Below, piece after piece: positions 58,269 to 61,441 of a DNA stretch of 64,000 nucleotides. The first letter of the stretch is position 1. Each line of letters begins with the position of its first letter. The notes beneath the pieces were generated by a model, which saw only the letters and a program-made list of their open reading frames with translations, was not told the origin of the DNA and did no database searches. Origin of the DNA: Leptolyngbya sp. 'hensonii' (GTDB taxonomy: Bacteria; Cyanobacteriota; Cyanobacteriia; GCF-001939115). The stretch covers positions 138 through 64,137 of the forward strand of contig NZ_MQTZ01000048.1 of the NCBI RefSeq assembly GCF_001939115.1. Direction: 5' to 3'. The translations under genes and the position numbers were made by a program.

Positions 58269-59276
58269 ATGGTTAGAACATTGGTTGAGCGATCGCAGCA
58301 ACTGCAGGACGTGGACAACAGCAAGGCAATGGCCTTCTCCCAATTGGGTGATCAATTATTTAATGAACTGGCAGCCAGAATGGCCACCCGGCACCAATAT
58401 CGGCTGTTATTTGAGCACCAACTGCGGCCCGAACTGTTTCAGCAGATTCAAAATGCTGCTGCAGGTTTTATCTCAGCCTGTCTGAACAGCCCCATCATCC
58501 TCTCAGAAGCGGAGATGATTGAACGACTACTGGGGGCCAGAGGTACCCTTCCCAACCACACAGGCACCGGCTTACTAATGCCCAAGCGGGAGCAGAGCCT
58601 GGAATTCAATCTGTTTCAAAAAAGCGTGGCCAATGCCTTTCGGCAGTTGGGAGCCAATGATCTAATTGATGCGGTTGATCTGCCCGTTAATCTGCGGATG
58701 GTTTACGGCAAAACAGACCCCGAAAAATTGCGGCTGCCGTTTACCAGCACCAAACTCCACAGTGATGTCTGGGCCGGGGTGCATGCCGATGCCACTGTAG
58801 TTGTTCTGCCCCTGTTTGGCGATATCGAAAATATTACGATCGAGGCCGGTGAGATGCCCCGTGAGATGGAACTCTCCGCCATGCGCGTCATGTCTGACTT
58901 TGACGAAGGTCGGGATATCCCCAAGGTCGTATCCTACAGCGATGCCCAACTCCAGCATGGAACGATGTACTTCAACGATGCTCGGGGATTACACCAGACG
59001 GTCAGACGCACCTCCGAAGGGCTGAGAATCTCTGTGGACTTCCGCTTCCGTCGCAAATTCAACGAGGCTTACCGGGCGATGGTTCCCCCCAGCATCGGCG
59101 GTGTTGAAGAAGATAACTGCGTGCCCTATGAAGAGTGGCTGCAAGTCGGCAGCGATCGCCTGATTGTGTTTGATGAAACCATGGCTCAGTGCCGATCGAA
59201 GCAGGGTCAAGGTGGCCCAGTGCCACTCTACGCTCGGGGTTATCGGAAGGTTCAGCTCTTTGACCAGCCTCTGTAA
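58269..59276 (+). CDS. Fe(II)/2-oxoglutarate oxygenase-like protein
   Basis: A 335-residue soluble protein. The fold looks like a phytanoyl-CoA-type or hydroxylase-type Fe(II)/2OG oxygenase: HSD at residues 164-166 gives the HxD pair, His242 in GLHQTVRR the second His, and Arg253 in SEGLRISVDF fits 2-oxoglutarate binding, with about 76 residues between HxD and His as expected. No known family name is clear from sequence. It is preceded by GAGGGA at the start and is the first gene of a three-gene rightward cassette, 54 bp before the methyltransferase. Substrate unknown. Confidence 0.72.
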   Translation: MVRTLVERSQQLQDVDNSKAMAFSQLGDQLFNELAARMATRHQYRLLFEHQLRPELFQQIQNAAAGFISACLNSPIILSEAEMIERLLGARGTLPNHTGTGLLMPKREQSLEFNLFQKSVANAFRQLGANDLIDAVDLPVNLRMVYGKTDPEKLRLPFTSTKLHSDVWAGVHADATVVVLPLFGDIENITIEAGEMPREMELSAMRVMSDFDEGRDIPKVVSYSDAQLQHGTMYFNDARGLHQTVRRTSEGLRISVDFRFRRKFNEAYRAMVPPSIGGVEEDNCVPYEEWLQVGSDRLIVFDETMAQCRSKQGQGGPVPLYARGYRKVQLFDQPL

Positions 59277-59330
59277 GACTGCGTTACCCGATCGAAATTG
59301 TTGCAGGACGTTTTGTTCAGGATTGAAAAC

Positions 59331-60095
59331 ATGAAAACCGATCACTGTTCAACCCAGGAGTTATACAACGGCACAGCCTCAAGCTGGGTTCGAGGAGAGC
59401 CCAGTTCCCTATCTGACTTTACAGCTCGTCCGGCAGTACTAGAGCTATGCGAACCCATTGCCGGATTGCAAATCCTGGATCTGGGATGCGGGGAAGGGTA
59501 TTGCAGCCGGGAATTACGCCGTCGAGGGGCTGGGGAAGTCGTGGGAGTTGACCTATCCCAAGGCATGATTGCTGCGGCCCAGGCCCAGGAAGAACGGGAG
59601 CCTTTGGGGATTAATTACGAAGTAGGCTGCGCCACCGATCTGACCCGATTTGGCGATCGGCAATTTGATCAGGTAGTTGCCGTTTTCCTGTTCAACTACT
59701 TGACCCTAGCCCAGACCCAGGAGTGTATGACCGAGGTCATCCGCATTCTCCGTCCGGGTGGACGGTTCATCTTTAGTGTGCCCCACCCGGCCTTTCCCTA
59801 TATGCGACAGGCAGAATATCCCTTCTACTTCCAGGTTGAAGAAGGGGGATACTTCAGCCAGCGCGATCAGCAATTTCCAGGCCGGATCTGGAAACGAGAC
59901 GGCTCCTCCCTGGCCGTACAACTGGTTCACAAAACCCTGGAAGATTACTTCACAGCTCTGCAAACAGCTGGCTTTAAAACCATGCCCACCCTGCGTGAAC
60001 TGAAAGTTCTGCCGGAGCATGTTGCCCTTGATCCATCGTTCTTTGAACCCCTGGTTGACTATCCCCTTCATCTAGCCTTAGAGGTGTCGAAATGA
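59331..60095 (+). CDS. SAM-dependent methyltransferase
   Basis: A 254-residue class I methyltransferase. Motif I is LDLGCGEGYCSREL near 48, then VGVDLSQGM, and the LRPGGRFIFSVPHPAF stretch near 145. It resembles UbiE/ubiquinone-type small-molecule methyltransferases in outline, but the substrate is unknown. ATG 59331 is preferred to the TTG at 59298 because AGGA precedes it. Its stop overlaps the next ATG by four bases (ATGA), so it is coupled to the diiron oxidase gene. Confidence 0.85.
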   Translation: MKTDHCSTQELYNGTASSWVRGEPSSLSDFTARPAVLELCEPIAGLQILDLGCGEGYCSRELRRRGAGEVVGVDLSQGMIAAAQAQEEREPLGINYEVGCATDLTRFGDRQFDQVVAVFLFNYLTLAQTQECMTEVIRILRPGGRFIFSVPHPAFPYMRQAEYPFYFQVEEGGYFSQRDQQFPGRIWKRDGSSLAVQLVHKTLEDYFTALQTAGFKTMPTLRELKVLPEHVALDPSFFEPLVDYPLHLALEVSK

Positions 60096-60820
60096 AACCC
60101 CTATCTTCTTCTGTGATGCAGACCTTCAGTGAGGTTGCGGCAACTCATCCCCTCTGGAACCATGAATTCCTGGGCCGGTGTCGGGCTGGACAACTCACCC
60201 TAACCGAGGTACAGGTGCTTGCGGTTCAGATGTATAAATTCTCGAAGGAGTTCAATCGAATTCTGGCTGGGATTTTGTCTTGCTGCCCCGATGAGAGTGC
60301 CCAATTTGTGATTCTGGAAAATCTGCTGGATGAGATGGGCCAGGGAGACAACAGCCTGTCTCACCCAGAACTCTTTCGCCGCTTTACCCGAGAACTGGGA
60401 ATTAACGATGAAACTCTGGCCAGCCTGCCCACAGAGCCAGAAACTCGCCACCTGATTGAAACGTATCTGAGCCTGCCCCACCAATATGGTTATCTGGGTG
60501 CTTTGGGTGCCATTTGTTTTGCCTCGGAAGGAATTGTGAGCTCCCTATATACCCAACTCCAAAATGGGATTGTTGGAGCCACTTTTTTATCCAGAGAATC
60601 TCTCATCTTCTTTGATCTTCATATCGATGTAGACGTTAGTCATGCAGCAAAATTAGCTGCCCTGATCGAGCCTCGGATTACCACCACAGAAACTGCCATG
60701 GATGTAAATCGTGCTATTCTAGAAGCAATGAATGCAAGAGTGCAATTCTTTAATGGAATTCAGCGAAAAGCCACCTCATGCAGCTCGAAAAACCATCTGT
60801 CACTGCTCTTGTCTGCATAA
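60092..60820 (+). CDS. Haem-oxygenase-like diiron oxidase (HDO/TenA-PqqC fold)
   Basis: A 242-residue all-helical protein of the haem-oxygenase-like superfamily. A full set of diiron ligand candidates is present in order: Glu53, Glu81, His91, Glu146, His177, Asp181 and His184. The spacings (10 from Glu81 to His91, 55 to Glu146, then 31, 4 and 3) match the pattern I recall for characterised members such as SznF. Characterised HDOs catalyse N-oxygenation, C-C cleavage or terminal alkene formation. TenA and PqqC lack this ligand set. ATGA overlaps the methyltransferase stop. Product and substrate unknown. Confidence 0.78.
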   Translation: MKPLSSSVMQTFSEVAATHPLWNHEFLGRCRAGQLTLTEVQVLAVQMYKFSKEFNRILAGILSCCPDESAQFVILENLLDEMGQGDNSLSHPELFRRFTRELGINDETLASLPTEPETRHLIETYLSLPHQYGYLGALGAICFASEGIVSSLYTQLQNGIVGATFLSRESLIFFDLHIDVDVSHAAKLAALIEPRITTTETAMDVNRAILEAMNARVQFFNGIQRKATSCSSKNHLSLLLSA

Positions 60821-61441
60821 TCATGATAACTTTTCACCTCGCTGAAGATATGGGGTGAAAAGATGGAGTAAACCCATAGGGCGAAAACATCTCCAGTCTT
60901 AAGTTTATTGTTGCCTACTATCACTACTTTAAGCCCTACCTGCTTTTTCCTTGCTATTATCACTTTTTGCTATCACTACAACCACTTTATCCAGAGGCTA
61001 TTTCTGGAGAAAATACACAACAATTTAGCTCAATAAAACAATTCAACATAGAGTTTGAATTGAGTCAGTCACATCAGCTTTCTAGACAGAGTGCCGATCG
61101 AACCAGTATGAGCGGGGAAATTTGCATCTTAATCTACCCCGATCGATGAAATGGAAATAGTTTATCAGCCGACATCAGCAGTTCAGAGAAGTTCTCTCTA
61201 AAGTAATTGTCAAAAGACAAATTGCCTGATACGGGGCAAACATTTTGCCTGCGTTATGAGTGAACCACTTACCCTGATGAGTCAATCAGGTATTTTCAGA
61301 TGATTAAATTTCTTGTTTCAGGAAGCAAGAAATTTCAAAAACCTTATCTGGAAAACATCAGTTTAGCCAGACGAAATAGGTTGATCTGAATCCGCCTGCT
61401 GAAGGAATATTGTTCCCTGGTCAAAGAGAAGGGTCGAAACC
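60821..61441. other. Intergenic region, no gene recognised
   Basis: A 621-bp gap after the oxygenase cassette. A 9-bp stem CTTTTCACC/GGTGAAAAG (60830-60862) directly follows the diiron oxidase stop. The rest is AT-rich, with repeated CTATCAC/TATCACT words near 60917-60980; no RNA gene was recognised. Confidence 0.45.
60830..60862 (+). terminator. Hairpin after the oxygenase cassette
   Basis: CTTTTCACC (60830) pairs with GGTGAAAAG (60854-60862) across a 15-base loop, about 10 bp after the diiron oxidase stop. No T-run follows. Likely marks the end of the cassette transcript. Confidence 0.45.

Follow-up and report, generated by a model that had tools for sequence, protein, structure and literature searches.

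The window, i.e., the whole 64,000-nucleotide stretch of Leptolyngbya sp. 'hensonii' DNA that was analysed, carries near its right end three rightward genes for a putative Fe(II)/2-oxoglutarate (2OG) oxygenase (ox1), a class I SAM-dependent methyltransferase and a predicted haem-oxygenase-like diiron oxidase (HDO), hereafter the trio (Table 1). The open reading frames bear out the tight packing noted in the original prediction: 54 bp separate the ox1 stop codon from the methyltransferase ATG at position 59331 (a TTG at 59298 is a possible alternative start), and the methyltransferase and HDO genes share an ATGA overlap. This -4 overlap was found again in 49 of 58 related loci, a few of which are counted twice. 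The trio was also thought to end in a hairpin, which holds in part. The stem is real and folds modestly better than shuffled sequences (z -1.7), but it has no T tract and is absent from the terminator-scan results, and the conserved cluster continues beyond it. In the window 620 bp (positions 60821-61440) lie between HDO and the gene that follows, far more than the roughly 50-160 bp in the relatives L016-L019. As this gap is single-copy in the genome, it was ruled out as a repeat element.

Table 1. Features at the right end of the window and the basis of their assignment.
Feature	Position	Strand	Basis
ox1, putative Fe(II)/2-oxoglutarate oxygenase, 335 aa	58269..59276	+	PhyH/prolyl-hydroxylase-like predicted fold
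Class I SAM-dependent methyltransferase, 254 aa from ATG	59331..60095	+	PF13649/PF08241
Predicted haem-oxygenase-like diiron oxidase (HDO), 242 aa	60092..60820	+	PF14518
Hairpin, 12-bp stem, 9-nt loop, no T tract	60830..60862	+	Folding vs shuffles, terminator scan
HNOBA-GAF-PAS-GGDEF-EAL protein, 927 aa	61442..64000, on to ~64225 past window end	+	ORF L029:3580-6363

The trio is not the free-standing cassette it was first taken for. It belongs to a larger conserved neighbourhood, most of it past the window end, with a gene for an H-NOX gas sensor, an HNOBA histidine kinase gene and often a gene for an HNOBA-GGDEF-EAL protein. In the window genome the HNOBA-GGDEF-EAL gene comes first and is followed, past the window end, by H-NOX (L029:6403-6966) and the HNOBA histidine kinase (L029:6963-8417). 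The domains of the HNOBA-GGDEF-EAL protein (PF07701, GAF, PAS, GGDEF, EAL) were read from orthologues, and the HNOBA domain (PF07701) of both this protein and the kinase was seen in the orthologues L018, L025, and L028. The H-NOX protein matches PF07700 in its own genome and aligns end to end with Alr2278, the H-NOX of Nostoc (E 1e-78), with LHARVG and YYSSR conserved; it thus has the HNOB domain, the haem-ligand His and the YxSxR motif of the H-NOX (HNOB) class. Judged by this alignment it is the orthologue of Alr2278, and it may accordingly be predicted to bind NO. The closest known counterpart of this part of the locus is bacterial H-NOX/HNOBA signalling. The usual gene neighbours of H-NOX are kinases and c-di-GMP enzymes (PMC9500659), and here a conserved enzyme trio adjoins H-NOX in addition.

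Predicted folds and metal ligands of the trio

The HDO matches Pfam PF14518 (E 3e-27) and its AlphaFold2 model (pLDDT 90) has the HDO helical fold. The best structural match is CADD, a para-aminobenzoate (pABA) synthase (chain 1rcw_B, Z 27.2, rmsd 1.8 over 213 residues, 22% identity), and further matches are the lysine N-oxygenase HrmI of hormaomycin (Z 24, about 20% identity), with which a DEMGxG...H motif is common in the alignment, and BesC (Z 23). HDO proteins have a set of three His and three carboxylate ligands on core helices (PMC13108848). The ligands predicted here, E81, H91, E146, H177, D181, and H184, are invariant in 58 of 58 sequences and align with the same six metal ligands in CADD. 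The full ligand set that had been claimed is therefore present, and by fold and predicted ligands the protein belongs to the HDO class, with an O2-dependent dimetal oxidation as the predicted reaction. CADD sacrifices its own Tyr27 and Lys152, which are replaced by Leu27 (58/58) and Leu/Ile156 in the window HDO, and a CADD-type synthesis of pABA is ruled out for this reason. From the first ligand, E to H, the spacing is 10 residues, as in HrmI and in the N-oxygenase SznF (E215-H225; PMC11705231), and 7 in CADD and BesC. The HDO is nevertheless not an orthologue of SznF, because its 242-aa chain has no cupin domain. More distant HDO matches (24-28% identity) lie on plasmids of Pantoea, Burkholderia, Streptantibioticus, and Scytonema; the Scytonema locus is surrounded by prophage and NRPS genes and is uninformative.

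For ox1 there was no sequence match in Pfam, NCBIfam or PDB, and no match in plasmids and viral contigs. Its AlphaFold2 model has a pLDDT of 72, with parts of the active-site region below 50, and its best structural matches are consistently 2OG oxygenases at Z 9-10, among them phytanoyl-CoA hydroxylase, prolyl hydroxylases, SnoN, and KanJ (Z up to 9.8). None of 57 relatives departs from H164 and D166 (HxD), H242, and R253, to which the sequence pattern assigns the roles of an HxD...H triad and a 2OG-binding Arg. The predicted ligands of both oxygenases are those expected, and so are the modelled fold of the HDO and, more tentatively, the double-stranded beta-helix of ox1. The methyltransferase lies between them, as had been proposed, and is by its Pfam matches a generic class I enzyme.

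Linkage of the trio to H-NOX genes

Relatives were sought in a sample of 390 cyanobacterial genomes, and some 85,000 species were scanned with two close peptide patterns of ox1, by which distant relatives would be missed. Genes in the comparison loci were called with a simple ORF picker, and the loci are related to each other. In the sample ox1 is present in 14 of the 390 genomes, and the scan gave 44 ox1 loci, all cyanobacterial, with genes for the methyltransferase, HDO, H-NOX, and HNOBA kinase within 10 kb of ox1 (<=10 kb) in 41 of them. When both sets were merged and seven duplicates removed, 47 of 51 distinct loci were fully linked. The incomplete loci are L042 and L070, which run into contig ends, L067, which is rearranged, and L024, which has a remnant HDO. 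Synteny in relatives is thus very strong, and the three genes form one conserved set through three gene orders: in most loci ox1 is divergent from the methyltransferase gene, in some, the window among them, both point the same way, and in L069 ox1 comes after HDO. As ox1 is usually divergent and HDO is followed here by the 620-bp gap, the neighbourhood is not one operon everywhere.

Two of the incomplete loci have features of their own. In L024 (L024:9476-12917, genome G114) ox1, H-NOX, and the kinase are kept, the methyltransferase is gone and HDO is reduced to a C-terminal remnant, as in a decaying copy. In L067 (Nostoc sp. LPT) ox1 adjoins a fragment of the HNOBA kinase, and the methyltransferase, HDO, and H-NOX are missing, which makes a deletion likely.

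H-NOX is present in 14 of 14 genomes with ox1 and in 33 of the 376 others. The HDO subfamily, defined by at least 60% identity, occurs in 17 of 390 genomes and adjoins H-NOX in all 17; methyltransferase partners 65-81% identical are found in the same 17/390 genomes. Fisher tests of the association of H-NOX with ox1 and with the HDO subfamily gave 2e-14 and 1e-17, respectively, values that are inflated by the relatedness of the genomes. H-NOX without the trio is common and accounts for most H-NOX genomes in the sample. In one such genome, G190, exactly the trio is missing between apcAB and H-NOX, leaving a clean empty site beside a retained H-NOX, and the trio therefore comes or goes as a unit. 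On the H-NOX tree the trio must have been gained or lost several times; the tree suggests shared inheritance with repeated loss, so that the loci are not independent. The gene-order changes that the linkage has survived, the empty site in G190 and the H-NOX tree are stronger arguments for linkage than the Fisher tests.

It could be argued that the trio and H-NOX are neighbours through common descent and have no functional link, as related genomes dominate the sample and the tree fits one gain followed by repeated loss. We regard this as very improbable. The linkage has outlasted three gene orders, the replacement of one oxygenase (see below) and clean loss of the trio at 60-80% protein identity, and the HDO subfamily is never found away from H-NOX in its 17 genomes.

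Oxygenase replacement and related loci

In four genomes the methyltransferase-HDO pair lies beside H-NOX without ox1, and a TauD-family Fe/2OG enzyme is encoded directly after HDO. The replacement belongs with FrbJ and other TauD/gamma-butyrobetaine-type Fe/2OG oxygenases, to which ox1 itself has no sequence similarity; hhalign, run with shallow profiles, likewise found none between ox1 and the TauD replacement. Of the 18 genomes with one of the two, none has both. Such an exclusive exchange of dissimilar enzymes is as expected if a 2OG-type step is required in the pathway, and ox1 and TauD are, by their sequence assignments, the same kind of step carried out by a different enzyme. In two genomes TauD also adjoins an ATP-grasp-like gene, which was rejected because its Pfam score is weak and the window genome lacks it.

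More distant relatives are found outside the H-NOX context. In G196 (L116:9743-15686) genes for a methyltransferase (53-54% identity), a TauD enzyme (37%) and an HDO (25%) stand in a row, and 196 bp further lies a gene for an ETR1_N ethylene-receptor-like hybrid histidine kinase, the only one in that genome. The sensor beside the trio is therefore exchangeable. In the alphaproteobacterium Indioceanicola profundi a plasmid (L113:14204-18701) carries overlapping genes for an HDO, a methyltransferase (53.5% identical to that of the window), an ATP-grasp-like protein, an HxD...H protein, and a further putative methyltransferase; the record is unannotated, and where Pfam gave no match the names are our own reading. 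The surroundings hold flagellin, FlgK/FlgL, and glycosyltransferase genes; no gas sensor was recognised near the methyltransferase-HDO pair, and hhalign with shallow profiles found no similarity between ox1 and the oxygenase-like protein. Among the members of the trio the methyltransferase is the most constant, and it is the oxygenases that vary. A different arrangement is seen in G121 (L076:2835-5424), a genome without the trio, in which a 385-aa HDO-cupin fusion is encoded divergently from the only H-NOX.

Candidate roles of the trio

We consider it moderately probable that the trio is a dedicated small-molecule pathway, probably in amino-acid or amine chemistry, that is gated by a gas sensor. 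A single pathway to one small metabolite is well supported by the gene arrangement and the oxygenase swap, and an amino acid or other simple metabolite as substrate, as first proposed, is plausible. The locus would then consist of a gas-sensor half and an enzyme half, the trio, whose three members would together turn what is probably an amino acid or amine into one small metabolite. H-NOX would bind NO and act via its two HNOBA partners, the histidine kinase and the c-di-GMP (GGDEF-EAL) enzyme, and NO and a switch of lifestyle would thereby be coupled to the production or action of the metabolite. Gene position, both in the linkage and in the G196 sensor exchange, is most simply read as control by the gas sensor or feedback to it. 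Counting against this reading are the 620-bp gap and the usually divergent ox1, the Indioceanicola pair with no recognised sensor, the relatedness of the loci, and L024 with its HDO remnant.

Non-haem iron enzymes are often NO-sensitive. Together with the H-NOX linkage this could mean that the trio consumes NO, or that its iron enzymes are merely adjusted by H-NOX to nitrosative stress; this seems highly unlikely, as it accounts neither for the methyltransferase nor for two 2OG families that exclude each other nor for the trios without H-NOX.

It is on the other hand conceivable, if doubtful, that the trio makes the ligand of the sensor. An arginine-like substrate would be methylated, N-oxygenated by the HDO and converted in a second iron-enzyme step to NO or to an NO-releasing N-nitroso compound that is read by H-NOX. 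The closest analogy is streptozotocin, for which the methyltransferase SznE/StzE acts with SznF/StzF, in which an HDO and a mononuclear iron cupin domain share one chain, and the N-nitrosourea product decays to NO (PMC11705231). The likeness lies in a methyltransferase, an HDO, and a second, mononuclear iron site, with a similar six-ligand spacing, and the E to H spacing of the window HDO is that of the N-oxygenases rather than that of CADD and BesC. The HDO-cupin fusion beside the only H-NOX of G121 points the same way, but it is a single locus. In contrast to SznF, the window HDO is a separate protein without a cupin, the second iron enzyme has a predicted 2OG-type fold, and a gas sensor is attached; ox1 and TauD are both of the 2OG type rather than cupins. 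The trio is moreover lacking from most of the sampled genomes that have H-NOX, and the related trio of G196 adjoins an ETR1-like kinase, which does not fit NO. It is tempting to speculate further that the trio is a modular producer, independent of NO synthase, of NO or of an N-nitroso/NO donor, and that H-NOX, the kinase and the c-di-GMP partner are its receptor, so that one locus would encode an entire autoinducer system based on a gas or volatile, with variants that use TauD or an ethylene-receptor-like kinase. This broader proposal is rather unlikely.

We found no paper on the chemistry of the trio or on an enzyme trio beside H-NOX; an earlier mention in papers on H-NOX neighbourhoods is possible. 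The Nostoc H-NOX is a standard model for human guanylate cyclase. A trio beside the sensor offers a testable answer to what cyanobacterial H-NOX proteins act on, or where their NO comes from, namely a gas-controlled metabolite pathway or a gas source; in the latter case NO would be formed with no need of an NO synthase. The locus also adds a Fe/2OG-like sequence family, ox1, for which Pfam and NCBIfam hold no model, and an HDO subfamily without known chemistry. As a minor observation, in TauD genomes (L075:633-3697, L079:11869-14927) the HNOBA kinase is followed by a response regulator and a hybrid kinase, which are probably phosphorelay partners of H-NOX.
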